Positions 1,568 to 20,926 of a DNA stretch of 30,625 bases are shown here, piece by piece. Position numbers and translations under genes: made by a program. How positions within the stretch are numbered: position 1 is the stretch's first letter; every line of letters starts with the position of its first letter. The notes under the pieces were generated by a model, which was given only the letters and a program-made list of their open reading frames with translations, ran no database searches and was not told the origin of the DNA. This DNA is from Deltaproteobacteria bacterium (GTDB lineage: Bacteria; Desulfobacterota; DSM-4660; Desulfatiglandales; HGW-15), in contig JAFGDF010000300.1 in the NCBI GenBank assembly GCA_016932235.1, forward strand, positions 1 to 30,625. The letters are read 5' to 3'.

Positions 1568-2077
1568 ATGAGGCAATCAGAAGGCTATTTTAACGGATTA
1601 GATAATTATAAAATCTATTATCAGAAATGGTCACAGGAAGGGACGCCGAAAGCAGTTATACTAATAGCCCATGGCTATGCCGAACACAGCGGACGATACA
1701 TGAATGTGGTAAACCACTTTGTACCATCGGGTTATCAGATATATGCCCTGGACCATCGTGGTCATGGTAAATCAGACGGTAAACTCGATGAGATCAGTGA
1801 TTTTTCAATATTTGTTGCTGATCTCAGAAAATTACATAATATCATCCGCGAGGAATATCCTGATGAGAAAATTTTCCTTATAGGTCACAGCATGGGGTCA
1901 CTCATCAGCCTTTTATACGCACTTGAATACCAGCGGGAACTCGCGGGTCTGGCAATCTCCGGCGGAGGTCTTCCAAAACCGGATGACCCGCCATTACCCA
2001 GGAGACCGTCAGATCAACCTTTGGATTCTTCATTCCTCAGTCGTGATCCGGAAGTATGGTTTAAAACACAAATATAG
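1568..2077 (+). pseudogene. Truncated monoacylglycerol-lipase-like alpha/beta hydrolase
   Basis: The frame encodes 169 residues matching the first part of bacterial monoacylglycerol lipase / lysophospholipase-type serine hydrolases: AHGYAEHSGRY (about 34-44), DHRGHGKSDG (62-71) and the nucleophile elbow GHSMGS with Ser108. The protein stops at TAG 2075-2077 just after a segment resembling the start of the lid region (FLSRDPEVW). Family members are normally about 260-300 residues, so the part that should carry the catalytic Asp and His is absent. The next 68 bases before the selenoprotein gene contain no continuation in any frame that I can recognise. I infer a 3' deletion that left an inactive gene; a GGGAG ribosome site precedes ATG 1568, so the fragment may still be translated. 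Confidence 0.75.
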
Positions 2078-2145
2078 TATGGCAATAAATTTAAGATGAA
2101 ATGTTACCCATAAAACCAATAACCTGTTTGAATAAGGAGTAACCT

Positions 2146-3921
2146 ATGAAACATCGATCTATTTTTTTCACATTAACAATTTTACTGTCATTCATAATAG
2201 CATCTCCTCAATTTGCTGCAGCAGCAGAGAAGATCGTTGTGATGAATCCACGGGGCATTCAGCCTGAAATACGCAAGATTCCCATGGCAGCACGGCCAAA
2301 GACTCTTGATAAAAAAACCGTTTATATAGTGGATACCAAATATCCCAATACCAAACCCTTTGTTAATGAGCTTTTTGCCGCTTTAAAAGCCAAATACCCG
2401 AAAACAAACTGGGTTCTTAAGGAGAAGTTCGGTGGGTACATGGATGACGATCCTAATCTCTGGAAAGAGATCAAGGAAAAAGCCGCAGGCGCTATTGTTC
2501 TGGTAGGTCATTGAAGCAGCTGCTCTCCGGCGGTCGTCGGCCACGCAGTAACCCTTGAAAGAATGGGCGTACCTGCAATCCCCATGATTACTCAGCGTTT
2601 TGAAGAACTTGTAACTACTACTGCCTTTAAAAAGGGCATACCCAATCTTAGGATAGTGTATACCCCCCATCCCATCACGGACAGGCCTGCAGAGCTTTGC
2701 AGGGAATATATCGCAGGAAATGATAACATTGCAGGCAAACCCATGCTTGAGCATATATATTCAGGCCTGACCCGGCCCCTCTCTGCAGCAGATGCCAAGG
2801 CCGGATTTCTTGAGAGGGAACCCAGACCCCGGGTCTTTCCCGCTGATACACCTGAAAACCTGATGGAGTTTTTCCATAACCAGGGTTATACAGACGGAAA
2901 TCCTATAATCCTTCCGACCGAAGAAAAGGTTAAGGAGATGCTCAACGCCACAAGCCATGATCCCGAGGAATGGGTGGGCCAGATGCGTCCATCCCCGCCC
3001 CATGAAGCATGGTATTACAATGTTGAGATGGTTGCGATTAACGCGGTAATGGCAGGTGCAAAACCTGATTATTTCCCTGTTATACTGGCCATTGCCTCAA
3101 AGGGCGTGACCTCCATGTTCAGTTCCACATCATCCTTTGCAAGGATGGTTGTAGTAAACGGTCCCATTGCGGACGAGATCGGCATGAACAAGGGAATAGG
3201 CGCCATGGGTCCTGTTAACCGGGCCAACTCTTCAATCGGCAGGTGCTGGACCCTTATCTCCAGAAACCTGGGCGGTTCAGGAAAACCTGGAGAGACCTAT
3301 CTTGGAAGCCAGGGAAATCAGCTTAACTACAATAACATCTGCTTCCCGGAAAACGAAGAAGAACTGCCTGAAGGATGGCTTCCCCTGCATGTGCAGAAGG
3401 GCTTTGATAAATCCGAGAGTGTCGTAAGCATATTCAGCGGCTGGAGCATGAATGACATAGCCTGGTATTCTCCCCTTCCCCAGCATGAGGTCATAAGGGG
3501 ATGGCTTGAACATTTCTTCTCCTTTGGCGTTACCCAGGCCATACTTGTTCTTGACCCCATAGTTGCCGATGATGTGGCTTCAAAAGGGTACAATACCAAA
3601 CAGGTCTTTGCAAAGTACCTTGCTGAAAATACGGGAACACCTGGCTGGCTCTACTGGTCGGAGAATAGAGAAAATCTCAAAAAGGCCAAAGATGGCATCG
3701 AGCCTTTTGCAGGCTGGCTTAAAAGGGGAGAAGATGCCGTTGTACCTGTTTCACGCTACAAGGGCAGAAGGATGGGCAATTCGAGTCTCCTTGCGACAAC
3801 CGATAATAAGGAATCGATAAGGTCAATTAATATTGTAGTCACTGGCGGCGGAACAAATACCTTCTGGTCAGGGGGTGATTTCGGTTATGTTGGCAGTACA
3901 TCCGTGGACTTCTGGAGATAG
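2146..3921 (+). CDS. Exported UGSC-family selenoprotein, variant motif U-S-S-C (Sec encoded by TGA 2512-2514)
   Basis: Reading the in-frame TGA at 2512-2514 as selenocysteine gives one 591-residue protein; read as a stop, it leaves 122 and about 450 residue pieces in the same frame with no ribosome site between them. Residues 1-27 form a Sec signal peptide (hydrophobic core, then AAAAE). The first domain (about 30-220) has alternating beta/alpha character, and its strand IVLVGH runs straight into U123-S-S-C126, a UxxC redox-type motif at a helix start. The second domain (about 235-591) shares GYTDGNPIILPTEEKV, INAVMAGAKP and NGPIADEI with the homologue at 18400. UGSC proteins are a known selenoprotein family of unknown function; here Gly is replaced by Ser. 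AAGGAG precedes ATG 2146. Nine bases separate it from the next gene, suggesting co-transcription. Confidence 0.88.
2515..2547 (+). promoter_or_regulatory. Candidate bacterial SECIS hairpin for Sec123
   Basis: Directly after the TGA, CCGGC (2527-2531) pairs with GTCGG (2536-2540, one G-U pair) around the four-base loop GGTC (2532-2535). TGC (2521-2523) pairs with GCA (2545-2547) below an internal loop. The GGUC loop lies 18-21 bases after UGA, nearly the same place as the GGUC of the E. coli fdhF SECIS apical loop (19-22 by my count). This is the element SelB should recognise. It is a hand-drawn fold, not a computed one. Confidence 0.62.
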
Positions 3922-3930
3922 GAGGCTGAA

Positions 3931-4509
3931 ATGATAAAAAGAATATCTATAATAATTTCCATCTGTATAGTTCTGTGCCTGATACTTGCTCCGGGAAATG
4001 TGCTCGCACAGTATAATTCATCAAAAAACCCTGCAGCCATTGGTACACCGGTAAAATCAATGGTTGAGCTTGGATCCGTATACTCGAGCATATACGATAT
4101 TACCATAACGGTTCTGGAAACGGTAAGGGGCAAGGATGCCATGAATCTACTTAAAAAGGCCGATTCCAAAACCCCTAAACCTCCCAAAGGATTTGAATAT
4201 GTACTTGCCAGGGTAAAGTTTGAAATGAAGTCAAGGGCCGTATCAGACAGACTTAGCTTTGTTCTGGGTGACTCGCCCCTTCAATGGGTTGCGCTCGCAT
4301 CTGACCTGACCGAATATCCCAGGGTCTCTGTAACTGTTCCTGCACCTGCGCTTAAGGGAACGGTAAAACCCGGTGATTCGTTTGAAGGATGGGTGGCATT
4401 TGCTGTGGATAAAAAGGACAGCGGGCCGGTCATGGTATTTAGTCCTGACTCGGGCGGGGCAACCGGAAGAGGAAAAACTCTGTTCTTTAAATTGTTCAAG
4501 GATAAATAA
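3931..4509 (+). CDS. Small secreted DUF4352-like protein
   Basis: A 192-residue protein with a clear Sec signal peptide (1-26, cleavage likely at VLA-Q). The mature part resembles DUF4352-type extracellular beta-sandwich proteins: a start like PVKSMVELGSVYSSIYDITI, a central GFEYVLARVKFEMKS strand pair, and PGDSFEGWVAFAV near the end. In that family these segments form an Ig-like fold; no enzymatic residues are expected and none are seen. It begins nine bases after the selenoprotein stop, with AGGAGG overlapping that stop region as ribosome site, so translation is probably coupled and the protein may be a partner of the exported selenoprotein. Family placement is by pattern only and the function is unknown. 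Confidence 0.65.
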   Translation: MIKRISIIISICIVLCLILAPGNVLAQYNSSKNPAAIGTPVKSMVELGSVYSSIYDITITVLETVRGKDAMNLLKKADSKTPKPPKGFEYVLARVKFEMKSRAVSDRLSFVLGDSPLQWVALASDLTEYPRVSVTVPAPALKGTVKPGDSFEGWVAFAVDKKDSGPVMVFSPDSGGATGRGKTLFFKLFKDK

Positions 4510-4730: not shown

Positions 4731-5597
4731 ATGTCTGAGAACGATTACAGTAAATATGTTGTCCAGGATCTAAAAACACCCTTTTCACCGGAGGAAAATA
4801 CCGCTTATTCAAAAATCGCCAAACGTATCCTTTGGATAGATGATAAAGTAGTTCCGGGAGCTTTCCAGATGAACTGCTCATGGTATTTTAAAACTAATGA
4901 AAAAAGCCCGCCGGTCCATACTCATAATGTGGGTGAAATTCTCGGCTTTTTCGGAAACGATCCGGATGATCCGTATAATCTCCATGGGGAGGTGGAGATC
5001 TGGCTGGGTGACCAGAAATTTAGCATCAATAAAAGCGCCATAGTCTTCATCCCACCCGGTTTGAAACATTGTCCGCTGCTGCTAAAGCGAGTGGCCAGAC
5101 CCATCTTCCATTTTTCCGTTGTTATCAGTGGATCTTGGGATGCAGAATCCCTAAACGAGACACATAAAGCTGAATCAGATTACAGTAAATATATAGTCAC
5201 CGAGCTTAAAACTCCGGACTTCAAACCAGAATTCGTGGAAGCCTATAAAAAGTTTGCCACGCGCGTACTCTGGATAGATAAAAATATAGTCCCCGACGCG
5301 TTCCAAATGAATGTTTCCTGGTACTGTAAACCTGCAAATCATGCGCCGGTATCACACAAGCATGATGTAGATGAGATTATCGGTTTTTTCGGTGGTGATC
5401 CCGACGATTGCTATAACCTCAACGGCGAGGTGGAGATGTGGATGGGAGACGAGCAGTTCCTTCTTACTAAAAGTACACTGCTTTTTGCACCTGCCGGCAT
5501 AAAACACTGTCCCCTTGTTATCAGGCGAGTTGACAGGCCGATTTTCCATTTTTCCATCGTCACCGGGGGCACGTACGGAATTAAAACCGACGATTGA
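4731..5597 (+). CDS. Double-cupin (bicupin) metal-binding protein
   Basis: A 288-residue protein made of two tandem homologous cupin units (about 5-131 and 150-276), each starting DYSKY and ending RPIFHFS. Both carry the metal set: His63, His65, Glu69 and His113 in the first; His209, His211, Glu215 and His259 in the second. Both also share GFFGxDPDD, NLxGEVE and KHCPL, and the C-P-L cysteine after the last His is conserved. No signal peptide is visible, unlike the related Tat-exported single cupin at 20276, so this one is probably cytoplasmic. Family knowledge supports a divalent-metal site but not a reaction. The start ATG 4731 has only a weak upstream purine stretch (GTAGAAAAT). The gene lies 221 bp after the DUF4352-like gene, and a cupin next to a UGSC selenoprotein recurs at the second cluster. 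Confidence 0.85.
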   Translation: MSENDYSKYVVQDLKTPFSPEENTAYSKIAKRILWIDDKVVPGAFQMNCSWYFKTNEKSPPVHTHNVGEILGFFGNDPDDPYNLHGEVEIWLGDQKFSINKSAIVFIPPGLKHCPLLLKRVARPIFHFSVVISGSWDAESLNETHKAESDYSKYIVTELKTPDFKPEFVEAYKKFATRVLWIDKNIVPDAFQMNVSWYCKPANHAPVSHKHDVDEIIGFFGGDPDDCYNLNGEVEMWMGDEQFLLTKSTLLFAPAGIKHCPLVIRRVDRPIFHFSIVTGGTYGIKTDD

Positions 5598-5995: not shown

Positions 5996-7276
5996 TTATT
6001 CCTTATATTTTAAATATGCCTTGACGGCTGCATAAGCTGTAGCGATCGATAGCCCTGATCCGCACTTCATTCGCATCCAATCGGCATGTGCCAGAATGGA
6101 GCCGGCAACAAAGAGTCTTGGATGAAAGATACAGCCGTTTTTATCAAGAGGCCGAAATGCATCGTCTGTTGTAATCCCGCAGCGGTTGATTGCATGGCCT
6201 CTCGGGTCCAGAAAATCCGGTTGATACCATTCTTTACGGGAAGAGGGTTGACAAACCGGCAGGTCAAAAATGGTTTCTCGGATTTTGGATCGACCCGCCT
6301 TAAGGCCCTGCCCGATAAATCGACCGCTGGCCAGTACAACCGCCTTTGCCCTCACAGTCAATTCTGTGTCATCTTGACCAATGTACAAGACAAAGTCTCC
6401 TGATTTGGCAACCTGAACCTGCAGGACCTTCATTTGATAAAAAGTACGCACACCGTTTTCTGATAACCACTGAATCATGGCCTCCCGCATCCGAATTCCA
6501 GTAATAGAAGGAGGCAGTGTCGGAATTTCGAAAACCTGGCATCCGATGATCTTTTCAATATCCGCGATAATAGTGGAACTGGCTTTGATCCCCAGAACAG
6601 CCGGCAGCCCCACTGCCTCTTCATGGGAAATCATGGGTTTCAATATTTCAGCCAAACGATTTCGATATTGAGATAGCTGAAATTGGAGTGCAAGATGTTC
6701 CGCATACAATTCGCCCTGTATTTCAGGCCACTCGATATGGCCGTACCGCAATCTCGGCCATTGGTCCTTCAATGTTTCGAAGATTTGCCGGGCGCTGAAG
6801 CCCATTAGCCCTTTAAAATCAACAAGTAGACAGGGCCATTTATTATGCCAGGCCTTAGCCCCGACCCACATACTTTGAGGCACTCCATAGGTGAGTTTAA
6901 TGGTACCGGTCGGGGTCAAGACTTCGGTGTTTTGGGCGATCTGTCGACAATACGGTAGGCCGGCTTCATTCAAATGGGTAATAAATTCTCCAAATGCCGC
7001 TTCGATGTCCTGTGGTGACAGGCAGGCATACGGGTGATCTGGCTGGTCTTTGCTGAGTGAAGCGATGGCGGCCCAGGGATCGGTCCGGAACCGTCTATCA
7101 CCAACAGGGTGAACACCCATCAGGTCCAGCAGGCCACTTGCATAAATGATTGCACTGGTAGTGCCGACCTGTACGGTGGAAATTCCACGAACGGCGGCAA
7201 AACCGGCAGCCGCCATTCCTGCCATTCCGGCACCTATCACCAGCAAATCGCACTGTATTGGTTCGGGTGTTTTCAT
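5996..7276 (-). CDS. glpB: Anaerobic glycerol-3-phosphate dehydrogenase subunit B
   Basis: A 426-residue protein, close to the E. coli GlpB length of about 419. It has the N-terminal dinucleotide-binding turn LLVIGAGMAGMAAAGFAA (about residues 11-28), the GlpB-type ASGLLDLMG segment and a C-terminal FVAGSILAH...CGSGLSIATAY flavoprotein end. GlpB works with GlpA to oxidise sn-glycerol-3-phosphate to dihydroxyacetone phosphate and passes electrons on, normally to the membrane Fe-S subunit GlpC. It follows glpA with a 33-bp gap and only a weak ribosome site, consistent with one transcript. No glpC follows: the next thing downstream is the CocE relic on the opposite strand. The partner Fe-S subunit must be encoded elsewhere or replaced. 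Confidence 0.9.
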   Translation of the reverse strand: MKTPEPIQCDLLVIGAGMAGMAAAGFAAVRGISTVQVGTTSAIIYASGLLDLMGVHPVGDRRFRTDPWAAIASLSKDQPDHPYACLSPQDIEAAFGEFITHLNEAGLPYCRQIAQNTEVLTPTGTIKLTYGVPQSMWVGAKAWHNKWPCLLVDFKGLMGFSARQIFETLKDQWPRLRYGHIEWPEIQGELYAEHLALQFQLSQYRNRLAEILKPMISHEEAVGLPAVLGIKASSTIIADIEKIIGCQVFEIPTLPPSITGIRMREAMIQWLSENGVRTFYQMKVLQVQVAKSGDFVLYIGQDDTELTVRAKAVVLASGRFIGQGLKAGRSKIRETIFDLPVCQPSSRKEWYQPDFLDPRGHAINRCGITTDDAFRPLDKNGCIFHPRLFVAGSILAHADWMRMKCGSGLSIATAYAAVKAYLKYKE

Positions 7277-7309
7277 ATATCACTTACCACGATGCTTAAG
7301 CACTTGGCA

Positions 7310-8869
7310 TTATTCGGATTTTGTGTCCGCCAGTTCGAGGCCCAGCAACCCGCAATGCATAGCCTCCTGCAATTCGGCCTGGACCAGCCGTGCCCCCCAC
7401 ATGATGGGATGCTGACCACGCCATCGTTCCCTGAGAAAGGACTTCAGCTCCTCTATTCCCTCGCAGCCTTCAATCATGCCGGTATGGTAAAGATATGCCA
7501 TCACACGGGTACCGCAAAACATACCCTGGCAGGGACCTTTGCCGATACGGCTTCTGTTGCTTATGGACCGGAGTAAAGTATTACGATGATTATTGCCCAG
7601 GGAGTCAACCAGAGAATCAATAGAACTTTGGGGAACCATTTCGCATCCGCAAAGCAACATATCCTTAGGATCTTTGTTTTTTATCCAGAAACGCGCTCCT
7701 GAACCGGGCTCTGTCCAGCGTGAGGCAGACTGGGCCGGAAGTGGCAGAACCGCAGTTTTACAGGGTGCGTCGACACCAAGGTATTGGCAGATCTCATCCG
7801 TAGCTTTTTCAGCCATCAAGCGAAATGTGGTCAGCTTGCCCCCGGTTATGGTCAAAAAATTGTCAACACCATGATCCGAATGTTTAATGAGTGAAAAGCC
7901 TCGACTTACATCCCGGTCGTTTCCTCTCCTGGACGGACCGGTTAAGGGTCGCACTCCGGAATAGGCACGAATATAACGAGCAGTTTCCAGTTCCGGAAGC
8001 ATAGCGGCCCCTTGGCTTATAATCTGGTCGACTTCGGCAACCGTGGGGCTTATCTGTTGGGGCGTATCGATACGGATGGAGGTGGTACCCAAAATCGATA
8101 CGGTTCCCCCCGGGACAAGAATATCGCCATCACTCGCTTTTCGCATGCGGTTGATGACCCGGTGGGTGATACGATGTTGGGTTACCAGTAGACTTCCCTT
8201 GGAATAGATCATGGGTAAGGAAATGTCTGCTAGGTCTGTGACTTGATCGGACCAGGTTCCGGCGGCATTTACGACATACCTTGTTTCAATGGATTTTTCT
8301 TCACCGGTAAGGGTGTCAATTGTACTCACATGGCAGATCTGCCTATTCCGTATCATAAACTTGACCGCGCAGGTATTGGGCAGGAATTGGCTTCCCAGTT
8401 CCTGTGCATGTCCGATATTGTCAAACGTTAAACGGAACGGATCTACGGCGGCATCTTCCACCCCGTAAACAGCTATTGTTTTAGGAGACAGACTAGGTTC
8501 CAGGTCCCTTGCCGTAATCACGTCCATTGGAACAACAGGAATACCGGCCTGGTCACAAAGACTTGGGAAATCAGATATATAGGATTCATCATCCCCTTCA
8601 ATCGCAACAAAAAGACCGCCGGTATCTTCAATGCATTGGGGTGCCAGTTGTTTGAGAAGCCGGTTTTCGACCTGACATTCTCCTGCAACTAAAGGATCCA
8701 CCTCAATGTAACGGGCGCCGCTGTGCAACAGTCCATGGTTCCCGCCGGAGGCGCCGGCATTGAGATCCTCTTTTTCGATCAGGATGCTATGTATGCCTCT
8801 TAACGCCAGATCCCGGGCAATACCCGTACCGGTAATGCCGCCTCCGATAATGAGTACCTGGGTTTTCAA
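7310..8869 (-). CDS. glpA: Anaerobic glycerol-3-phosphate dehydrogenase subunit A
   Basis: A 519-residue flavoprotein. It opens with the FAD-binding loop IIGGGITGTGIARDLALRG (residues 7-25). The GlpA/GlpD-type NHGLLHSGARY segment follows at about 44-54, and SGVRPLTGPSRRG and TITGGKLTTFR lie at about 304-350. The C-terminal BFD-like region carries Cys407 and Cys409 (CGC) and Cys447 and Cys452 (GPCQGMFC), the usual [2Fe-2S] ligand set of GlpA. The enzyme feeds glycerol-3-phosphate electrons into the anaerobic respiratory chain. The start is TTG at 8867-8869; GGAG lies seven bases upstream, and the FAD loop begins only six residues in, so a later start is unlikely. It is divergent from glpR across 213 bp and is probably co-transcribed with glpB. 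Confidence 0.93.
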   Translation of the reverse strand: MKTQVLIIGGGITGTGIARDLALRGIHSILIEKEDLNAGASGGNHGLLHSGARYIEVDPLVAGECQVENRLLKQLAPQCIEDTGGLFVAIEGDDESYISDFPSLCDQAGIPVVPMDVITARDLEPSLSPKTIAVYGVEDAAVDPFRLTFDNIGHAQELGSQFLPNTCAVKFMIRNRQICHVSTIDTLTGEEKSIETRYVVNAAGTWSDQVTDLADISLPMIYSKGSLLVTQHRITHRVINRMRKASDGDILVPGGTVSILGTTSIRIDTPQQISPTVAEVDQIISQGAAMLPELETARYIRAYSGVRPLTGPSRRGNDRDVSRGFSLIKHSDHGVDNFLTITGGKLTTFRLMAEKATDEICQYLGVDAPCKTAVLPLPAQSASRWTEPGSGARFWIKNKDPKDMLLCGCEMVPQSSIDSLVDSLGNNHRNTLLRSISNRSRIGKGPCQGMFCGTRVMAYLYHTGMIEGCEGIEELKSFLRERWRGQHPIMWGARLVQAELQEAMHCGLLGLELADTKSE

Positions 8870-8962
8870 TAGAACTCTCCTTTATCAAAACGCTGCCAGA
8901 GGAAAAAATAATTATTTGGGAGATATATTTTTTCACCTGTGATAAAAAACATTCAATGATAC

Positions 8963-8992
8963 TTGATTAATAGACCGTATCTATCATATAAA
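8963..8992 (+). promoter_or_regulatory. Candidate sigma-70-type promoter for glpR
   Basis: In the 213-bp divergent gap between glpA and glpR, TTGATT (8963-8968) is followed after 18 bases by TATAAA (8987-8992), about 90 bp before the glpR start. The surrounding DNA is very AT-rich, so chance matches are likely. No convincing GlpR operator could be picked out. Confidence 0.35.
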
Positions 8993-9082
8993 CTAAAAGA
9001 TGTCACGATAGATTTTCATTATAGAAAATTTTATCTTTGATATTTTCTTTTTCGAATATTTTTTCATTTCTTGGAGGACTAA

Positions 9083-9937
9083 ATGAATCATTCGACCCAC
9101 AACACCGAACAATCCCCTGAAATCGGAAACAATTATGCCGGCAAAACAATACCGGCAAATGGGAAGTCCACTCTGGTCCGTGATCGGCATGAAAAAATAT
9201 ACCATTTGATACTTTCCAAAGGGTTTGTCACAATTGAAAACCTTGCTGAGGAATTCAAGATGACTCCCCAGACAATCCGGCGGGACATCAACATGCTGAG
9301 CGATGAAGGCATGATCGTACGCTATCATGGGGGTGCCGGTCCCTCCAGTACTGAAAATATGGAATATAATCAGCGGAAGGTTCTATACCTGAAAGAAAAA
9401 CAGGAAATCGCTAAAATGGTTGCCAAACATATTCCCAACAATGCATCACTGTTCATCAATATCGGCACGACCACCGAAGAGATATCAAAAGCACTTTGCA
9501 ATCACCAACGCCTGAGAGTCATAACCAACAATTTGAACGTGGCTACAATTCTAAGCCGCAATGAAAATTTCGAAATCATCACCACCGGCGGCTTAATCCG
9601 TCATCGCGATGGGGGTATCATCGGCCCGTTGACAATCGATTGTATTCAGCAGTTCCGAGTGGATATCGGCATCATAGGCATCAGCGGTATCGATATGGAC
9701 GGCACGCTGCTCGATTTCGATTACCGGGAGGTTAGGGCTTCACGGGCCATTATAGATAATTCACGCAAAGTTTTTTTAGCCGCGGATCATACCAAATTCG
9801 GCCGCAATGCCATGGTTCACCTGGGAAACATTTCAGATATCGATGCCATGTTTACCGATCGTCAGCCACCTGCCGCTTTAAGAAAAATCCTGAAGGAGGC
9901 ATCGGTGGAAGTTTATGTCAGCAATAGAGGGGAATAA
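9083..9937 (+). CDS. glpR: DeoR-family transcriptional repressor, GlpR-like
   Basis: A 284-residue DeoR-type regulator. The N-terminal winged helix-turn-helix covers about residues 35-90: RHEKIYHLIL, then VTIENLAEEF and the recognition helix TPQTIRRDINMLSDEG, with the YHGGA wing. The C-terminal sugar-phosphate sensor domain (about 105-265) contains NIGTTTEEIS, ITNNLNVATIL, TTGGLIRHRDGGIIG and RASRAIIDNSRKVFLAADHTKFGR, typical of GlpR proteins that bind glycerol-3-phosphate. About 34 residues precede the usual GlpR start, but GGAGGA seven bases before ATG 9083 supports the long form. It sits between divergent glpAB and the glpSTPQUV transporter genes, so it most likely controls both, relieved when glycerol-3-phosphate accumulates. 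Regulation is inferred from position and family. Confidence 0.88.
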   Translation: MNHSTHNTEQSPEIGNNYAGKTIPANGKSTLVRDRHEKIYHLILSKGFVTIENLAEEFKMTPQTIRRDINMLSDEGMIVRYHGGAGPSSTENMEYNQRKVLYLKEKQEIAKMVAKHIPNNASLFINIGTTTEEISKALCNHQRLRVITNNLNVATILSRNENFEIITTGGLIRHRDGGIIGPLTIDCIQQFRVDIGIIGISGIDMDGTLLDFDYREVRASRAIIDNSRKVFLAADHTKFGRNAMVHLGNISDIDAMFTDRQPPAALRKILKEASVEVYVSNRGE

Positions 9938-9939
9938 TC

Positions 9940-9952
9940 GTCACACTGTGAC
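9940..9952. promoter_or_regulatory. Short perfect palindrome downstream of glpR
   Basis: GTCACA-C-TGTGAC begins three bases after the glpR stop and about 215 bp before glpS. It could be an operator for the transporter operon. The arm order TCACA-TGTGA is the reverse of the usual CRP/FNR-type layout, so no regulator is named. Confidence 0.3.
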
Positions 9953-10168
9953 AATTCAACCGCATGATGATCGAAAATACCTTAAGAAATACAAATTTTT
10001 GTTGTAATTTGAATTTTATGTAAATAATTAATCACTTGCGAAAATATTTTGAGTATGCTAGAGAGCTTAGGTCTTTTGTAAAATAAAAATTATTTAATAG
10101 ATACTACTTTTGGAACATATTTCATAAAAAATCAATCTCTTTGAAAGTATGAAATCCTCGGAGTGCAC

Positions 10169-11305
10169 ATGATAGGATTGAAACTTGAAAATATTGAGAA
10201 GACTGTCGGCGGTAAAATGCACTTGACGGGAATCAATCTCGATTTTGCACCCGACTCCCTCAATATTCTACTGGGCCGCACACTAGCTGGAAAAACATCT
10301 CTGCTGCGCCTCATGGCCGGTCTGGACAAACCTTCCAAAGGACGAATCTTCATTAATGGCAAAGATATTACAGGTGTTTCGGTCAGAAAACGCAGTGTTG
10401 CTATGGTCTACCAACAATTCATCAATTATCCTTCCATGACGGTTTATAAAAATATTGCTTCGGCTTTAATTACCAAGGGCATGAAAAAAGCGGAAAGAGA
10501 CCATCGCGTTCGAGAAACGGCCGAAATGCTTAATATAGAAAAACTGCTGGACCGGTTACCTTCAGAACTGAGCGGAGGGCAACAACAACGTGTCGCTATC
10601 GCCCGCGCACTTGTAAAAGAGGCTCATCTGCTTCTTCTGGACGAACCTCTGGTTAACCTGGACTATAAACTACGGGAAGGATTACGGGCAGAACTTAGGG
10701 ATATTTTCGAACGACGCGAATCGATCGTGGTTTACACAACAACAGAACCGACCGAAGCATTGATGCTGGGAGGCAATATCGTGGTTATTGATGAAGGCCG
10801 TGTTATCCAGTCCGGTCTTACTCCGGAAGTCTATCACAATCCTGCCACAATGAAAGTGGCAGAAGTTTTCAGTGATCCGCCCATTAATTATATGGATGCC
10901 TGCGTTAATGGAAAATATCTCTATTTTGGCAAAGATATCCGAGTTCCCCTAGACGGTCATATAAAAGGACTGACACCCGGCGATTACCAGGTCGGCGTTC
11001 GATCAAACCATTTGTTCTTAAAGCGAAAAGGCGCCAACGATGTTGAATTGAAGGTCCGGGTGGAATTATCGGAAATAAACGGCTCCCAAACCATCACCCA
11101 TGTCCGTCACAAAGATTCATCCCTTGTGGTGCTGGATGAGGGGATTTATCCTCAGAAAATCGGAAGCGAAATCCCGGTGTTTGTCAATCCACAGGTTTTG
11201 TTTATATTTGACAGCGCAGGCAATCTCGTCGCTTCGCCCGGAAAAGATAGGTCAAAATGGGACGTTTTGAAACTGGTTCCTGACAAAAAGACCGCTAACA
11301 TGTAA
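10169..11305 (+). CDS. glpS: Glycerol ABC transporter, ATP-binding subunit GlpS
   Basis: A 378-residue ABC ATPase with a C-terminal TOBE-like regulatory region (about 240-350). Walker A is GRTLAGKT (36-43), the Q-loop glutamine is near 82 (YQQF), the signature is LSGGQ (134-138) and Walker B is LLLLDEP (155-161). The switch (H-loop) histidine is missing: TTTEPTEA stands where VTHDQVEA is found in GlpT. It belongs to the MalK/UgpC-like group and its neighbours identify it as GlpS of the rhizobial-type glycerol importer, where GlpS and GlpT form the ATPase pair. A GTG at 10163 could extend it by two residues, but GGAG at 10160-10163 sits five bases before ATG 10169 and decides the start. The stop lies 18 bp before glpT. 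Confidence 0.88.
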   Translation: MIGLKLENIEKTVGGKMHLTGINLDFAPDSLNILLGRTLAGKTSLLRLMAGLDKPSKGRIFINGKDITGVSVRKRSVAMVYQQFINYPSMTVYKNIASALITKGMKKAERDHRVRETAEMLNIEKLLDRLPSELSGGQQQRVAIARALVKEAHLLLLDEPLVNLDYKLREGLRAELRDIFERRESIVVYTTTEPTEALMLGGNIVVIDEGRVIQSGLTPEVYHNPATMKVAEVFSDPPINYMDACVNGKYLYFGKDIRVPLDGHIKGLTPGDYQVGVRSNHLFLKRKGANDVELKVRVELSEINGSQTITHVRHKDSSLVVLDEGIYPQKIGSEIPVFVNPQVLFIFDSAGNLVASPGKDRSKWDVLKLVPDKKTANM

Positions 11306-11323
11306 GGTGCAGGGTAAGTTTGA

Positions 11324-12409
11324 ATGGCTACGATTCAATTTAATAAAGTCGCGCACAGCTATCTACGCAATCCCCAAGGAGAATTTGATTACGCACTCAA
11401 ATATATCAACCACTCATGGGACGACGGGGGGGCCTATGCCCTGCTCGGTCCTTCAGGCTGCGGAAAAACCACCTTGCTGAACATTGTTTCAGGGCTTTTA
11501 ATCCCCAGCAAAGGCCGTGTATTATATAATGACCGGGATGTAACAACTCTTCCTCCGGAAAGAAGAAATATCGCCCAGGTTTTTCAGTTCCCTGTTCTTT
11601 ACGATACCATGACTGTTTTCAACAACCTGGCTTTTCCATTGCGGAATCGAGGCATACCTGAAGCAAAGTTAAAGGAAAGAGTCCTTGAGGTTGCCGACTT
11701 ACTGGAACTTACCCCTTTTCTCAACAAACGGGCCGCGGGTTTAACCGCCGATGCCAAGCAAAAGATCAGCCTTGGAAGGGGGCTTGTCAGAAAAGATGTG
11801 TCCGCCATTCTTTTCGATGAACCACTTACAGTGATCGACCCTTATCTGAAATGGCAGCTGCGGCGCAAGTTAAAGGAAATTCATGAACAACTCAAAATCA
11901 CCTTCATCTATGTGACCCACGACCAGGTAGAAGCCATGACATTTGCCGACCAGGTAATGGTAATGAATGAAGGTGAAATCCTCCAAATCGGTACGCCTCA
12001 GGATCTTTTTGAAAATCCGGAACATACCTTTGTGGGCTACTTTATCGGGAGTCCCGGAATGAATTTTATACCCTGTACAATTGATGAAAATAAAGCCAGA
12101 TTTAACGGTATGCAGATCACATTGGACAATGACTTGGCCGAGCGTGCCCGGACCGCCAGGGGAAGAATGGAATTGGGCATAAGACCTATGTATCTTGAAG
12201 TACATTCACAATTCCTTGAGGGGAGTATCCCGGGCAAGATCAAGACAGTGGAAGATCAGGGGACCTGCAAGATTGTCAGTCTTATCGTAGATGACAATAT
12301 TTTACACGCCATGGTATCGGAGGGGAAACCGATACCGGAAAAAGAGGCATGGCTTCGATTTCCACCTCAACGGACAAAACTTTTCGCCGATGGACGGTTA
12401 ATACAGTAG
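11324..12409 (+). CDS. glpT: Glycerol ABC transporter, ATP-binding subunit GlpT
   Basis: A 361-residue ABC ATPase with an intact Walker A (GPSGCGKTT, 42-50), Q-loop Gln88 (VFQFP), Walker B (AILFDEP, 161-167) and H-loop His199 (VTHD). The signature motif is degenerate: LTADAKQK (140-147) replaces LSGGQQQR. A TOBE-like tail occupies roughly 240-360. It complements GlpS, which keeps the signature but lacks the H-loop histidine, so only one composite ATP site should be fully competent. The name follows the rhizobial glpSTPQUV scheme and must not be confused with the E. coli glycerol-3-phosphate antiporter GlpT. It follows glpS by 18 bp and precedes glpP by 7 bp, within one operon. Substrate assignment (glycerol) comes from gene order and the DUF2160 partner. 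Confidence 0.88.
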   Translation: MATIQFNKVAHSYLRNPQGEFDYALKYINHSWDDGGAYALLGPSGCGKTTLLNIVSGLLIPSKGRVLYNDRDVTTLPPERRNIAQVFQFPVLYDTMTVFNNLAFPLRNRGIPEAKLKERVLEVADLLELTPFLNKRAAGLTADAKQKISLGRGLVRKDVSAILFDEPLTVIDPYLKWQLRRKLKEIHEQLKITFIYVTHDQVEAMTFADQVMVMNEGEILQIGTPQDLFENPEHTFVGYFIGSPGMNFIPCTIDENKARFNGMQITLDNDLAERARTARGRMELGIRPMYLEVHSQFLEGSIPGKIKTVEDQGTCKIVSLIVDDNILHAMVSEGKPIPEKEAWLRFPPQRTKLFADGRLIQ

Positions 12410-12416
12410 GAATACC

Positions 12417-13298
12417 ATGCAAAAATGGCAGAACAACAAGGCTTGGCTTTTGGTTTTACCGGCTTTTATTATCGTCGCCTTTAGCGCCGTTATCCCGTTG
12501 ATGACCGTGGTCAACTATTCGATCCAGGACATCCTCGGACCGGGTCAAAGTGTCTATGTGGGTTTCGATTGGTTCAAAGAGATGTTGACTAACTATCGCC
12601 TGCACGATGCCCTATGGCGCCAGTTCCTGTTTTCCGGCCTTACTCTGCTGATTGAGATTCCCCTGGGAATAATGATTGCCCTGGCCATGCCCAAACGTGG
12701 CTGGGGCGTCTCCGCCAGTCTCGTGATACTCGCTATGCCGCTTGTTATCCCCTGGAATGTGATCGGAACCATCTGGATTATTTTTACCCGACCGGATATC
12801 GGTCTTTTTGGCGTGGGGATCAATAGTCTTCATATATTAAAGGATACTTATGACCACACAGCGAGGCCTCTGTATGCTTGGATAACTGTGGTGGTGATGG
12901 ATGTATGGCACTGGACTCCGCTTGTGGCCCTCTTATGTTATGCTGGTCTGCGGGCCATCCCCGATGTTTACTACCAGGCGGCCAGGATTGACGGTGCATC
13001 AGGCTGGTCTACCTTTCTCTATATCCAACTGCCGAAAATGCGCGGCGTACTCACCATTGCCGTCCTGTTGCGCTGGATGGACAGCTTCCTTATTTATGCG
13101 GAGCCATTTGCCTTAACCGGAGGCGGTCCCGGCAATTCAACCACGTTCCTGTCCATATACCTCGTCAAACTCGCCACCATGCAATTTGATCTTGGACCGG
13201 CTGCGGCCTTCTCACTTATCTACTTTGTCATTATTCTCCTCTTTAGCTTTATATTCTACCAGGTTCTGCTGAATGTAGGAAGAGGAGAGAAGGTATGA
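12417..13298 (+). CDS. glpP: Glycerol ABC transporter permease GlpP
   Basis: A 293-residue MalF/UgpA-type inner-membrane permease with about six hydrophobic segments. The first is WLLVLPAFIIVAFSAVIPLM near residues 10-29, and the last is LIYFVIILLFSFIFYQVLL near the end. The cytoplasmic EAA-type loop that docks on the ATPases is seen as AARIDGASGWSTF followed by LPKMRG (about 190-210). It would form the membrane channel with GlpQ. Its start overlaps nothing: glpT ends seven bases earlier and AGGA precedes the ATG. The 3' end overlaps glpQ in an ATGA tetranucleotide, a sign of coupled translation. Specificity for glycerol is inferred from the operon. Confidence 0.88.
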   Translation: MQKWQNNKAWLLVLPAFIIVAFSAVIPLMTVVNYSIQDILGPGQSVYVGFDWFKEMLTNYRLHDALWRQFLFSGLTLLIEIPLGIMIALAMPKRGWGVSASLVILAMPLVIPWNVIGTIWIIFTRPDIGLFGVGINSLHILKDTYDHTARPLYAWITVVVMDVWHWTPLVALLCYAGLRAIPDVYYQAARIDGASGWSTFLYIQLPKMRGVLTIAVLLRWMDSFLIYAEPFALTGGGPGNSTTFLSIYLVKLATMQFDLGPAAAFSLIYFVIILLFSFIFYQVLLNVGRGEKV

Positions 13299-14098
13299 AA
13301 ATTCAGAAAAGAACCATCGGACTCCTTTTATATTTCGGATTTCTTATCGTCCCCATATACTGGATGATAAACATGTCATTAAGGACTAATGCTGATATCA
13401 TGGCTGATTTCAAGCTCTTTCCGGTTGATATGTCTTTTCATAACTACATTCATATTTTTACGGATCGTACTTGGTACATAACCTATGTTAACGCGATCAT
13501 ATATGTCTGCTATAATACCATTCTCTCATTGGCGGTTGCCCTGCCCGCGGCTTATGCCTTTTCACGCTACCGCTTTCTTGGTGACGGGCAAATGTTCTTT
13601 TGGTTCCTTACAAACCGGATGGCGCCTCCGGCGGTCTTTCTCCTCCCTTATCTCCAGCTTTATGGTACCCTGGGCCTGCTTGACACGCATATCGCTGTAG
13701 CCCTGGCCCATTGCCTGTTTAATATACCTATGTCAATCTGGATATTAGAAGGTTTTATGTCTGGAATTCCCAGGGAGATCGATGAGACCGCCTTTATCGA
13801 CGGATACAGTTTTCCACGCTTTTTTATCACCATCTTCATCCCGCTGATCCGGGCTGGTGTGGGCGTGACCGCCTTTTTCTGTTTCATGTTCAGTTGGGTT
13901 GAACTTCTTTTTGCCCGGACATTGACCATCACTGAAGCAAAACCGATAACGGCTGCCATGACACGCACCATAAGCGCCGATGGCCTTGACTGGGGACTGA
14001 TAGCAGCGGCCGGTGTACTCACGATCATCCCCGGGGCCGTGGTGATCTGGTTTGTACGCAATCATTTGGCCAAGGGCTTTACCCTTGGGCGTGTATAG
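13295..14098 (+). CDS. glpQ: Glycerol ABC transporter permease GlpQ
   Basis: A 267-residue MalG/UgpE-type permease with hydrophobic segments starting at IGLLLYFGFLIVPIYWMINM (about 8-27) and ending at AAAGVLTIIPGAVVIWFV. The EAA-type ATPase-docking loop appears as EIDETAFIDGYSF followed by IFIPL (about 160-185). It pairs with GlpP to form the translocation path. The start codon overlaps the glpP stop (ATGA) and GAGGAGAG lies just upstream inside glpP, so the two permeases are made together. The name is that of the rhizobial transporter gene, not the E. coli glycerophosphodiesterase GlpQ. Confidence 0.88.
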   Translation: MKIQKRTIGLLLYFGFLIVPIYWMINMSLRTNADIMADFKLFPVDMSFHNYIHIFTDRTWYITYVNAIIYVCYNTILSLAVALPAAYAFSRYRFLGDGQMFFWFLTNRMAPPAVFLLPYLQLYGTLGLLDTHIAVALAHCLFNIPMSIWILEGFMSGIPREIDETAFIDGYSFPRFFITIFIPLIRAGVGVTAFFCFMFSWVELLFARTLTITEAKPITAAMTRTISADGLDWGLIAAAGVLTIIPGAVVIWFVRNHLAKGFTLGRV

Positions 14099-14109
14099 AG
14101 GGAAATACC

Positions 14110-14388
14110 ATGAGTCTCCAATGGATGTGCTGGACCAAACCGACGGCCATTTTTTTTATTGTTTTATTCTTAATGATCATGGGTATGCTTGTCTGGGAGC
14201 TTATCTCCCCGACAATTGAACGCCATGGGTTCTTAAAGATCTCGACGACCCGCGGGACACGATTCTTTCTTGGCTTATTGGGCAGCGGCTATATCCACCT
14301 TGCCTGGATCGCATTCACTGATCTGACAGTGTGGCTCGCTATTCCCATTTCTGTTTGCTGGATAATCATTGTGATGCGTTGGGGATAA
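14110..14388 (+). CDS. glpU: Small membrane protein of glycerol transporters, DUF2160 (GlpU)
   Basis: A 92-residue, strongly hydrophobic protein with about three membrane segments: AIFFIVLFLMIMGMLVWEL near 13-31, a middle one around FFLGLLGSGYIHLAWIAF, and LAIPISVCWIIIVM at the end. The residues WMCWTKPTAIFF, SPTIERHGFL and TTRGTRFFLGLLGSGYIHL fit the DUF2160 family, which is found between the permeases and the binding protein of glpSTPQUV operons. Its role there is not established; an accessory or stabilising subunit is likely. It starts 11 bp after glpQ with a GAGGGAAA ribosome site. Its presence is the best evidence that this transporter is of the glycerol type rather than a generic sugar importer. 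Confidence 0.85.
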   Translation: MSLQWMCWTKPTAIFFIVLFLMIMGMLVWELISPTIERHGFLKISTTRGTRFFLGLLGSGYIHLAWIAFTDLTVWLAIPISVCWIIIVMRWG

Positions 14389-14411
14389 AAAAATATAAAC
14401 AAGGTCTATTT

Positions 14412-14450
14412 CGTTAGACGTAACGGCCTTCGCATCGGCGGGATAGGCCG
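14412..14450 (+). promoter_or_regulatory. Overlapping small hairpins between glpU and glpV
   Basis: CGTTA (14412-14416) can pair with TAACG (14421-14425), and CGGCCT (14424-14429) with AGGCCG (14445-14450); the two share two bases and so exclude each other. Hairpins ahead of a binding-protein gene often stabilise that part of the message so that the binding protein is made in excess. That role is inference here. Confidence 0.3.
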
Positions 14451-14499
14451 GGAGGAATCATCAGACAATAGTAAGAAAAAGGGAAAAAGGAGGTTCCAT

Positions 14500-16260
14500 A
14501 TGAGGAAACCATTATCAAGGAAGATCTCCCAGGAAATTATCCTGGGGTTGGTTGTTGTGGCGCTGTTCGCGTTTTTAACAAACCCGGCAAATGCTGACAT
14601 GGCTGCCGCGAAAAAGTGGGTTGATGAAGAGTTTCATCCATCGACCTTAACCAAAGAGCAACAGATGCAAGAGATGGAATGGTTCGTCAACGCAGCCAAA
14701 CCGTTTGTCAAGATGTCTCAAAGCGAGCCAATCAGGGTTGTGGCTGAGACCATCGCCACCCACGAATATGAAGCCAGGGTACTGTCCAAGGCCTTTGAGG
14801 AAATAACCGGTATCAAGGTCTCCTATGACTTGATCCAGGAAGGGGATGTCATTGAAAAGCTTCAGTCTCAGTGGGCCTCGGGCAAGAATCTCTATGACGG
14901 CTGGGTTAACGATTCCGACCTCATCGGAACCCACTGGCGTCTTGGATATGTGGTTCCCCTGTCCGACTTCATGGAGGGGGAAGGCAAAGATGTGACCCTG
15001 CCGACACTGGATGTGGATGACTTCATGGGCAAATCTTTTACCACCGCTCCGGACGGCAAACTGTACCAGCTCCCGGACCAGCAGTTCGCAAACCTGTACT
15101 GGTTTCGCTATGACTGGTTTAACCGCCCGGATTTCAAAAAGAAATTCAAGGAAATTTATGGCTATGAACTTGGTGTACCGGTCAACTGGTCGGCCTATGA
15201 GGATATAGCCGAATTTTTTACCGAGCATGTCCGCGAAATCGACGGCAAAGCGGTTTTCGGTCACAATGACTATGGCAAGAAATCCCCGGACCTGGGCTGG
15301 CGTTTCCATGATGCATGGCTCTCCATGGCTGGCGCCGGCGACAAGGGAATCCCCAATGGTCTGCCTGTGGACGAATGGGGCATCCGTGTTGACGAACAAT
15401 CCCGACCGGTGGGTGCTAGCGTGAGTCGGGGGGGTTGTGCGAATTCTCCGGCAGCCAAGTATGCACTCCGCAAGTACATGGAATGGCTCCGGAAGTATGC
15501 GCCCCCGGGTGCTCTTGGAATGGATTTCTATACTTATGGACCCTTTCTCGCGAGCGGGGTCGTTGCTCAGGAGATATTCTGGTATACATCCGCCCTTCCG
15601 GACATGGTTGCTCCCGGACCAACGGTTAATGAGGATGGGAGCCCGAAATGGCGTATGGCCCCATCACCCCATGGCCCTTACTGGGAAGATGGGATGAAAC
15701 TGGGGTATCAGGACTGTGGTTCCTGGACCTATATGAAGAGCACTCCCCTTGATCGTAGAAAGGCTGCATGGCTCTTCGGCCAGTTCTGCGTCTGTAAAAC
15801 TACATCACTGAAAAAAGCCCATGAGGGTCTGACGCCTATACGTGACAGTGACATCCGACACGAGTCATTTACCGAGCGCGCACCCAAACTGGGAGGTTTG
15901 GTAGAGTTCTACCGCAGCCCGGCGCGCGTGGCCTGGACACCATCCGGTACCAACGTACCGCATTATCCCATGCTGGCGCAGTTATGGTGGCAAAATGTAG
16001 GTGAGGCAGTTTCCGGTGAGGTAACCGTGAGCAGGGCCATGGACAATCTGGCTGCTGAGATGGACAAAGTTATGGCACGTCTCGAACGGGCTAAAATCAG
16101 CAAGGTGGCCGGTCCAAAGCTGAATGAAGAAAAGGATGAATCCTACTGGCTGAATCAGCCCGGTTCACCCAAGCCAAAGCTGGCCAATGAAAAACCGAAA
16201 GGTGAGACTATCAATTATGATGATCTGATTAACGCCTGGAGCGAGGGGCGTGTCAAATAG
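14500..16260 (+). CDS. glpV: Glycerol ABC transporter substrate-binding protein GlpV
   Basis: A 586-residue periplasmic binding protein with a Sec signal peptide (about 1-32, ending NPANA before DMAAA). It is much longer than typical sugar-binding proteins, which fits GlpV-type glycerol binders (about 570-590 residues). Recognisable stretches include AKKWVDEEFHPSTL, ESEPIRVVAETIATHEYEA-like sequence, AFEEITGIKVSYDLIQEGDV, KLYQLPDQQFANLYWFRYDWF and AWTPSGTNVPHYPMLAQLWW. It would deliver glycerol to GlpP/GlpQ. AAAGGAGG lies eight bases before ATG 14500. It closes the operon, followed by 255 bp without a gene in which a new promoter is seen. Confidence 0.9.
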   Translation: MRKPLSRKISQEIILGLVVVALFAFLTNPANADMAAAKKWVDEEFHPSTLTKEQQMQEMEWFVNAAKPFVKMSQSEPIRVVAETIATHEYEARVLSKAFEEITGIKVSYDLIQEGDVIEKLQSQWASGKNLYDGWVNDSDLIGTHWRLGYVVPLSDFMEGEGKDVTLPTLDVDDFMGKSFTTAPDGKLYQLPDQQFANLYWFRYDWFNRPDFKKKFKEIYGYELGVPVNWSAYEDIAEFFTEHVREIDGKAVFGHNDYGKKSPDLGWRFHDAWLSMAGAGDKGIPNGLPVDEWGIRVDEQSRPVGASVSRGGCANSPAAKYALRKYMEWLRKYAPPGALGMDFYTYGPFLASGVVAQEIFWYTSALPDMVAPGPTVNEDGSPKWRMAPSPHGPYWEDGMKLGYQDCGSWTYMKSTPLDRRKAAWLFGQFCVCKTTSLKKAHEGLTPIRDSDIRHESFTERAPKLGGLVEFYRSPARVAWTPSGTNVPHYPMLAQLWWQNVGEAVSGEVTVSRAMDNLAAEMDKVMARLERAKISKVAGPKLNEEKDESYWLNQPGSPKPKLANEKPKGETINYDDLINAWSEGRVK

Positions 16261-18399: not shown

Positions 18400-20112
18400 A
18401 TGAAAAGATATTTATTGGCGCTTTCCATCGGGATTCTCGCAGTCATAGCAGCCCAGGGGACATCATGGGCTCAGGGGGCTGCCGGTTCCAAAGCAAAGAC
18501 GCCCGACGTAAAATTTGAAGCATTAAGTCCCTGGGCGGATGCCGACCCGATTCCGTTCCGGGGGATATCCCCGAGACTTGACAGCCTCGCAGGAAAGAAA
18601 ATCGGATTATTCGTCAATTCCAAACGGGCTGCCATGCCCATTTCTAATTCAGTTGACAAGAGACTCAAGGAGATGTACCCAGATATCCGGACAATCGTGT
18701 TCCATTCCACAGAACCGAATGTCAACGAAATCGAGACAAAGAACAAGGAAAAATTTACTGCATGGGTTAAGGGTGTTGATGCTGTTATTGCCCTCGTCGG
18801 AGATTGAGGATCCTGCACAAAGTACCTCGTCTACAATGGTATAGCAGTCGAGGACTTTGGCAAGCCGGTCGTGTTACTGGCTAATAATGGTTTTACTCAT
18901 GATGCTCATTCAGCTGCATCAAGCAGGGGAATGCCCGGAATCAGAATTATCGGAGAATCCGTGGCCTGTGAATCAACCGTTGTTGCGGAAATAGAAAAGG
19001 GAGTAGCTGCAGCAATGAAGGATGTGATTGAGGGTTTGACCAGGCCGCTCTCTGCCGAAGAGAAATCTCCCAAACAGCCGACAGGCAAGTCTCCAAGGGT
19101 TGCCTTCAAAGGAACTCTACAGGAAGTGAATCAGTTCTTCTACCGCAAGGGGTGGGGTGACGGCCTGCCTATTATTCCGCCGACCGAGAAGGCCGTGGCG
19201 GAAATGATGAAGGGGACAGATCTGCCGCCCGACCATATTGTGGCAAAGATAATTCCTAGAAAAGGTAAGGCCACAATTGAAAAGATCGCGATCAACGCGG
19301 TGATGGCAGGTGCTCTGCCCACACACATGCCTGTTTTGATTGCAACCGTGGAGGCCTTTGCAGATCCAAAATCAAGGTTTGATACATTTGAGGTGAGTAC
19401 AGGTTCATGGGCCCCCTCTTTGACCATAAATGGTCCCATAAGAAGAGATATCCACGTCAACTGCAGTTCCGGCTCGCTTAGTCCGGGGGATATTGCAAAC
19501 GCTGCAATCGGCCGTGCAGTCGGACTTATCGTCAAAAACATCGGCGGAGCAAGAAAGGCCGTTGAAGACATGGGTGTCGTAGGTAATCCGGGCAAGTACA
19601 GCCTTGTTATAGGTGAGGATGAAGAGGCAAGTCCCTGGGAACCGCTAAGTGTTGAACGCGGATTTTCAAAGGAAGACAGCACAGTGACCGTGTTTTTCCC
19701 CAACACGTTTATACAGACTGTACCGGGCGGGACAGACGCAAAGGGGATTATGGATAGCCTTGTAAGGATGGGCACTACAAGCATGTCCAGCGTCATTCTT
19801 ATTCCCTCCTGGGCAAAGGTTATTGCAGGAGAAGGATACTCAAAGCAGGACGTCAAGGATTATATAGCGGAACACAGTAAACCCGCTGTAATCGCCGGTT
19901 TTGAAGAAATCACAAATCGGCCTAAAATGGATACCGAAAACCTCATTATCCTGGTTGCCGGCGGGCCGGGCTCCTTTATAGGGCTGCTCAGAAGCGTTGG
20001 GCCCGGATTTTTTAATAATGCACTTGTCACCAAAAAAATCAGACTGCCGAAGAACTGGGACAAACTGGTTGCAAAATACAGCAACCTTAAACCTATTTAC
20101 GAGAGGTACTAG
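18400..20112 (+). CDS. Exported UGSC-family selenoprotein (Sec encoded by TGA 18805-18807)
   Basis: With TGA 18805-18807 read as selenocysteine, one frame gives 570 residues. The strand AVIALVGD leads into U136-G-S-C139, the defining UGSC motif. Read as a stop, the TGA would leave two in-frame halves with no ribosome site between them. Residues 1-25 are a Sec signal peptide (ending SWA-QGA). The second domain (about 220-570) carries GWGDGLPIIPPTEKAV, INAVMAGALPTHMPV and NGPIRRDI, all matched in the homologue at 2146. UGSC is a recognised selenoprotein family without known activity; the UxxC pair suggests thiol/selenol redox chemistry outside the cytoplasm, which is inference. AAAGGAG precedes the ATG. 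A hairpin-rich 163-bp gap leads to the Tat cupin, with the glycyl radical enzyme beyond. Confidence 0.92.
18808..18847 (+). promoter_or_regulatory. Candidate SECIS hairpin for Sec136
   Basis: CTGC (18813-18816) can pair with GCAG (18844-18847) and, above an asymmetric internal loop, GTA (18822-18824) with TAC (18832-18834) around the loop CCTCGTC containing G-U. Loop distance from UGA (about 18-24 bases) is right for a bacterial SECIS, but the upper stem is only three pairs. The fit is weaker than at the first selenoprotein gene. Confidence 0.4.
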
Positions 20113-20275: not shown

Positions 20276-20926
20276 ATGAATACTGACAACGGGAAAAAGA
20301 ATCAGACCCGAAGGGCGTTTTTCAGCGACTTGACAGCCTCCACAGCTCTGGCAACAGTGGCTCTGGCACAACTGGGTTCCCCTGCGGCTGCAATTGCGCA
20401 GGAACAGGACAAGCCCTCTGATAATTTTAGAAAACCTCCCAATCTGCCGCCCTGGCCCGAAGGAACCACAGGCAGCAAATATGACCATCTGTTCTGCACC
20501 AGCCTGAAAGAGAAACCCCTGACCGACACAATAATGAGTCCGACGATCAGTTTCCGAGGCAACAGTGACCTTCCCGGTGCAGGGATTAATTTTGGGTTCC
20601 GTTATTATGTCAAACCATTCAAGATGGAACTGCAGTCACATCACCACGATGTAGATGAATACCTGTTTTTCCTGGGCGGTCAGTTACCGGACCTGACAGC
20701 CAATTTTGATGCGGAAATTGAAATATTTTTAGGTCCGGAGTATGAAAAACACATTATTACAAAGCCCTGCATCCTGTATATCCCAAAAGGTATGGAGCAC
20801 AATCCCATGGATATTAAAAGGGTTGGTAAACCGTTACTTTTCATCCCACTGCTTCTGGCGCCCTATTTCAACGGCGTCTACCAGACAGGTTATATGCAGT
20901 TTTTGGGTAATAATAAGATAGATTAG
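20276..20926 (+). CDS. Tat-exported cupin-domain protein
   Basis: A 216-residue protein with a twin-arginine signal (TRRAFFSD at 11-18, then a hydrophobic stretch and AIAQEQ near 39-44), so it is exported folded, probably with its metal already bound. The single cupin shows SHHHDVDEYLFFLGG with ligands His122, His124 and Glu128, and a second motif PKGMEH with His175. The pattern is the same as in the double cupin at 4731 (HxHxxxE...GFFG...KH). A broken copy of its last 43 residues lies at 18164-18295, upstream of the selenoprotein gene. It sits between the UGSC selenoprotein and the glycyl radical enzyme, with AGAGGAGAG before the ATG. Metal binding is well supported; isomerase, oxygenase or sensor roles are all possible and none is proven. 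Confidence 0.88.
   Translation: MNTDNGKKNQTRRAFFSDLTASTALATVALAQLGSPAAAIAQEQDKPSDNFRKPPNLPPWPEGTTGSKYDHLFCTSLKEKPLTDTIMSPTISFRGNSDLPGAGINFGFRYYVKPFKMELQSHHHDVDEYLFFLGGQLPDLTANFDAEIEIFLGPEYEKHIITKPCILYIPKGMEHNPMDIKRVGKPLLFIPLLLAPYFNGVYQTGYMQFLGNNKID

Follow-up and report, generated by a model that had tools for sequence, protein, structure and literature searches.

Selenoproteins of the UGSC family are not new. UGSC and a UGSC fusion have been in print since 2008: the portions of PMC2398784 available to us describe a fusion of UGSC with a conserved but uncharacterised domain (UGSC/Unknown_1), with a guessed Trx-like fold. In the part of a 2026 review that we could consult (PMC13188914), UGSC is given with one Sec and no function, and is credited to a 2007 paper on an Olavius symbiont. 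The same part puts the largest bacterial selenoproteomes at 57 and 63 genes. Going by excerpts of PMC2398784 and of another survey text, ocean surveys find UGSC to be one of the commoner selenoprotein families; excerpts of PMC9312934, PMC7539508, PMC9402790 and PMC5029168 contribute abundances and lists.

The accessible text of the literature searched makes no mention of UGSC export, of sets of UGSC paralogues or of kinship with GrdB, and this includes the 2008 description of the fusion. Where GrdB and UGSC are both named in that text, they stand side by side and no link is drawn.

The window, meaning the whole stretch of 30,625 nucleotides that was analysed, holds a variant of this published fusion, on the plus strand at 2146..3921. 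The gene very probably reads UGA as selenocysteine, making one long protein, and this selenoprotein is probably exported. Its motif is U-S-S-C, and it is called the USSC gene here. A sequence-only reading of this DNA had described exported selenoproteins with a large extra domain as little studied. What we did not find in print, within the portions seen, are 10-26 UGSC paralogues per genome, the joint loss of the partner Cys, the match to the GrdB Sec segment and a subfamily with four TGAs.

Layout and surroundings of the USSC gene

The frame encodes 591 residues, ends in TAG and has a single internal TGA (2512..2514), which is codon 123. A Shine-Dalgarno-like AAGGAG (2134..2139, plus strand) precedes the ATG by 6 bases. 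The protein starts with MKHRSIFFTLTILLSFIIASPQFAAAA-EK, which resembles a Sec signal peptide. The predicted peptide, residues 1-27 (2146..2226) with an AXA-type end, comes from a hydrophobicity heuristic and not from a dedicated signal-peptide program; the structure model has a helix at residues 2-18. The sequence-only reading had placed the redox motif outside the cytoplasm. The start of the protein agrees with this, but export itself is no more than probable.

The read-through does match the family profile, a check that the sequence-only reading had proposed: Pfam's PF24696 spans the TGA at residues 32-187, with 102.1 bits against a gathering cut-off of 25. The domain (2239..2706) is layered alpha/beta and resembles the Sec segment of GrdB, judging by profile, structure model and HHalign. 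The protein further shares with the family the UxxC pattern and the existence of both Sec and Cys forms. It differs in its motif (the literal U-G-S-C is absent, just as the earlier reading had it), in its signal-peptide-like start and in a fused C-terminal domain of about 360 residues. It also scores only 74 bits against the NCBIfam UGSC equivalog NF041046, where the cut-off is 125, and so falls outside that equivalog.

The C-terminal domain (2818..3918) is probably the Unknown_1 of the 2008 paper, an identification made without alignment to its figure. It had no match in a Pfam profile search, and no clear match in a fold comparison with the PDB.

Directly downstream lies a gene for a small protein (3931..4509, plus strand) with a signal-peptide-like start and a sub-threshold DUF4352 match. 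Among 15 related loci having downstream DNA, 13 have such a protein next after the USSC gene, a count that leaves out L006, whose DNA ends at the USSC gene. It was not found at L069 and at the divergent L008. Just upstream is a hydrolase-like gene (1568..2077), apparently shortened (169 aa), whose product matches positions 2-111 of the 239 in Pfam's Hydrolase_4.

The window contains a second UGSC fusion selenoprotein gene, identified by profile and alignment, at 18400..20112 (plus strand), with motif U-G-S-C and its TGA at 18805..18807. The two proteins align on both flanks of the Sec codon, with Sec facing Sec and 29% identity in 485 columns (E 6e-50), which bears out the alignment claimed earlier. 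Between the two genes (5996..16260) there are glpA- and glpB-like genes, a GlpR-like regulator and a sugar/glycerol-type ABC transporter. A cupin-like protein is found about 1 kb or less downstream of each UGSC gene (4731..5597 and 20276..20926). The first has a Cupin_2 match and the second is tied to it by clustering alone; their cluster counts 12 members from 10 loci. Another recurrent neighbour of UGSC genes is a gene for a glycyl-radical (pyruvate formate-lyase-like) enzyme, which the window has at 21032..23434; one cluster of such genes spans 6 loci, the window included.

Paralogue sets and the UxxC couple

The set of paralogues in related genomes is a larger observation than the USSC variant itself. 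The UGSC profile has 203 matches in 12 relative genomes, 10-26 per genome; these genomes were picked because they matched and are not a random sample, and not all matches are listed. In six of the 12, the frames matching the fusion profile were read, which gave 92 frames in 72 regions. The residue in the Sec column is U in 70 of these and Cys in none, with S, N, L, T, G, A or a gap in the other 22. By genome, the share with U is 8/9 in G001, 12/15 in G006, 7/9 in G214, 16/23 in G513, 14/14 in G522 and 13/22 in G664.

Together with the two window genes this makes 72 Sec rows, and both U and the later Cys (Cys126 in the USSC protein, 2521..2523) are present in all 72. The residue before U is H, D or G, and the two residues between U and C vary. 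Because U and C alone are fixed, UxxC serves as the working definition here. The USSC motif had been presented as a variant of U-G-S-C; this is correct as far as it goes, but it is one of many UxxC motifs. In the 22 non-Sec rows the partner Cys is lost or gapped in 20 and kept in 2. By joint conservation and joint loss, Sec123 and Cys126 are a UxxC couple.

A FastTree tree was made of 95 rows, being the frames longer than 400 aa and six Cys homologues. In it, 11 of the 15 multi-member motif classes form single clades, for example GGUDGC, GHUSQC, GHUSTC and AGUPGC; GHUSSC, GHUSLC, GHUSVC and GDUGSC do not. The window USSC gene clusters with the USSC genes of G214 and G001 (support 1.0). The genomes are MAGs, yet the UGSC genes would seem to be mostly old paralogues rather than mixtures of strains.

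The signal-peptide heuristic is positive for 58 of the 72 Sec rows, leaving 14 with no such start, and for 12 of the 22 non-Sec rows. The Cys homologues, from Neorhizobium, Ramlibacter and others, are of a different kind. They are named UGSC family (seleno)protein and have the same full-length two-domain chain, with GHCSTC or GHCSSC, and those of Neorhizobium are 39-43% identical to the USSC protein. Apart from having Cys for Sec, they mostly lack the signal-peptide-like start, which is present in 4 of the best 120 and absent from 116. Two fused homologues on plasmids, from Sporomusa (L014) and Vibrio (L020), have GDMGTS and ADMGTS at the Sec site, and each lies near aconitase X and DUF126 genes.

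One subfamily goes further. A UGSC fusion with four conserved in-frame TGAs occurs in 5 of 11 genomes searched (L210, which is G001:C155, and L211, L212, L213 and L214). Its first domain has GG-U-U-G-C, and GGH-U-(V/G)-U-APFSW follows near the end. The stop stays in one place while its codon varies between TAA, TAG and TGA. Hairpins of -10.7 to -19.5 kcal/mol, values that come without a shuffled control, are predicted after both Sec pairs. The available part of the 2026 review (PMC13188914) gives 1 to 3 Sec residues for catalogued prokaryotic families, and a narrow literature search found no report of a four-Sec bacterial protein.

Relation to GrdB and possible functions

HHalign places the UGSC domain on the Sec segment of GrdB with probability 89.8 and score 49.8 over 99 columns, Sec on Sec. 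Shuffling the columns gave a score of at most 20.2 in 20 shuffles, and with one GrdB alone the probability is 85.3. Besides UxxC, the E..GxP.V and PHP motifs are common to both. This is a resemblance, and the protein is not classed as GrdB. It has another second domain and a signal-peptide-like start. The Pfam model GRDB (PF07355) does not match it at E up to 10, a weak test since the model seems to end at Sec, given that full-length PF07355 matches contain no stop.

The partners of GrdB were not seen either. Neither grdE nor grdA was found beside the USSC gene, and the GrdE, GrdA and thioredoxin families have no match among the 19 window proteins scanned. Against GrdE, HHalign gives a probability of 0.1 for the C-terminal domain and 5.7 for UGSC. 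In other organisms the two domains occur apart: on the three haloarchaeal plasmids read, they are annotated as two genes lying next to each other. A link to thioredoxin is seen on an Arthrobacter plasmid, where trxB, trxA, a gene for the C-terminal domain and a UGSC (Cys) gene lie side by side.

Component B of glycine reductase works through a selenolate, and this is the model for the chemistry proposed here. The whole explanation is that the USSC gene makes an exported, GrdB-like reductase with a UxxC couple, and a C-terminal domain for a small organic substrate. We would put its chances at about even. The protein would be exported through the Sec pathway, its N-terminal domain acting as a GrdB-like redox module around Sec123 and Cys126. 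The C-terminal domain may present or activate the substrate, a role suggested by the fusion and by gene adjacency to UGSC elsewhere. The selenolate would attack an electrophilic carbon and expel a leaving group; release would follow through a Se-S bond with Cys126, to be reopened by an external reductant. The paralogues, which differ in the residues near U and C, would presumably act on different substrates. Among the points against such an exported reductase are that cytoplasmic thioredoxin is out of reach, that no exported electron donor was found and that 14 of the 72 Sec rows have no signal-peptide-like start.

It is at least conceivable, if rather unlikely, that the protein is instead a thiol-disulfide oxidoreductase or a redox protein of peroxide type, likewise exported, in which Sec/Cys would exchange disulfides or reduce oxidised thiols and the second domain only docks partners. 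A couple that is kept and lost jointly fits this, as does the signal-peptide-like start of most Sec rows; there is also the Trx-like guess of 2008 (PMC2398784, seen in part), and one database record bears the name thiol-disulfide oxidoreductase. The profile match, however, goes to GrdB, and the neighbours look catabolic (CoA transferase, TRAP or TTT transport, carboxylesterase). The structures listed for the UGSC domain in the fold comparison are doubly wound alpha/beta with no thioredoxin among them, though this absence excludes nothing.

Less probable still is a role as chaperone or detoxification factor, with a metal or metalloid bound by the Sec. Such a role has been suggested for the Sao selenoproteins, according to the portion of PMC13188914 at hand. 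Probable export and the UU and UxU pairs of the four-Sec relative would suit it. No metal resistance family was seen, however, among the 10 neighbour representatives annotated, two of which have no family at all. Moreover, many of the C-terminal domain's conserved residues survive in the non-Sec paralogues, a sign that the protein may do more than bind through Sec. The GrdB-like reductase is the preferred reading.

The TGA codon and the reach of the family

That TGA 2512..2514 lies in one continuous frame and is a Sec codon had been claimed from the sequence, and the comparison with relatives upholds this. Samples of 395 and 396 genomes from the two phyla concerned were searched, with at most 3 candidates scored per genome; 36 and 38 genomes respectively have a match. 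All 17 places that are at least 60% identical contain exactly one in-frame TGA. In the loci returned from genome contigs, the TGA is at the same place in 8 of 8: seven have GHUSSC, and the 50%-identical one has GHUSTC. All 16 USSC genes compared have it.

On Neorhizobium plasmids the chain is full-length, with Cys at the Sec codon (GHCSTC), although it is split into two frames in one of the three strains read (L009). A search with the Neorhizobium protein found 6645 relatives among 7998 scored candidates. The best 120 of these all have Cys exactly at position 123, 117 as GHCSTC and 3 as GHCSSC, so the Cys versions anticipated by the sequence-only reading do exist.

A reading of the locus as two proteins or a pseudogene, with this TGA a true stop, a disabling mutation or an error of sequencing, is very improbable. 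The one thing in its favour is how gene callers treat the locus. A search with the window protein found 5616 relatives among 7997 scored candidates, and the best 120 all begin after the TGA, at residues 135-200; 62 of them start at position 140, which is a Met in the window protein. Separate proteins of this sort had been named as a possible refutation. Since the upstream half and the TGA are conserved in the DNA of those relatives that were read, they are truncated gene calls, and the splitting that had been foreseen is what the database contains. A genuine stop does not sit well with the same single TGA at 17 of 17 close places, with Cys in the best 120 full-length homologues, or with codon conservation that peaks at the TGA.

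This last point comes from the 16 USSC genes, some of which share a genome. Where these agree in the residue, they also agree in the codon in a share of 0.75 over the 14 codons from 122, the highest of 540 stretches of this length. Blocks of 15 codons range from 0.38 to 0.58, except for the one at the UGA (115-129) with 0.61. For each of the two serines that follow the UGA, all 16 use AGC.

A SECIS-like hairpin, CCGGC-GGUC-GUCGG (2527..2540), begins 12 bases past the UGA. This is the usual place of bacterial SECIS elements, whose loops usually carry G and U. Standard pairs fill 91.1% of the pair cells in 30 sequences, whereas slid versions of the hairpin reach 7.8-76.1%; covariation is slight, with a low score. 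Both this set and the one of 16 are a selection from the loci in hand. RNAalifold chose other pairs in this region. Folding of the window USSC gene has a z of -1.62, and 6.7% of 300 synonymous shuffles are equally stable. No excess folding appears in 18 GDUGSC genes, which include the second window gene (mean z +0.31). Taken as a whole, the 72 Sec genes show more stable folding than either comparison set, 209 control stretches (p 7e-5) or 21 non-Sec paralogues (p 0.014).

The conservation points to decoding of UGA 123 by SelB and tRNA-Sec, which the downstream hairpin would help. For the Sec machinery, which the sequence-only reading had wanted looked for in the genome, the evidence is indirect and comes from relatives. 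In 7 relative genomes the machinery exceeds curated cut-offs for selB in 5, selA in 6, tRNA-Sec in 6 and selD in 7. All four are present in G001, the nearest relative genome, whose own protein is, at 86% identity, the closest to be found in genomes. Among 14 control genomes the counts are selB 2, selA 1, tRNA-Sec 5 and selD 2, and with 5 of 14 controls over its cut-off the tRNA-Sec test alone is soft. On a plasmid of Paracoccus ferrooxidans (L016, 6001-12760) there is a UGSC gene with an in-frame TGA and the second domain in a separate frame, and an annotated selB about 3 kb downstream.

A host code in which TGA stands for Trp or another amino acid, which would also keep the frame open past the TGA, can practically be dismissed: TGA ends 6 of the 22 counted window reading frames, there are 141 TGG codons and internal TGAs are confined to the two UGSC positions, from which it follows that the code is not reassigned.

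UGSC ranks with the commoner selenoprotein families in ocean surveys, and the available part of PMC13188914 gives no function for it. The relation to GrdB offers testable chemistry, and the Cys homologues of Neorhizobium and Ramlibacter are proteins that can be expressed without selenium. The paralogue sets suggest a large repertoire of exported selenoenzymes that gene callers truncate. Tentatively, and with somewhat less than an even chance of being right, some uncultured genomes of Desulfobacterota type and of Acidobacteriota may each carry 10-26 UGSC paralogues that are mostly exported, GrdB-like selenoenzymes, varied around the invariant UxxC to suit different substrates outside the cytoplasm; one conserved member would have four Sec residues, as UU in the UGSC domain and UxU in the second domain. 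If true, this battery would amount to an extracytoplasmic, reductive selenium chemistry of an extent uncatalogued in the literature searched.
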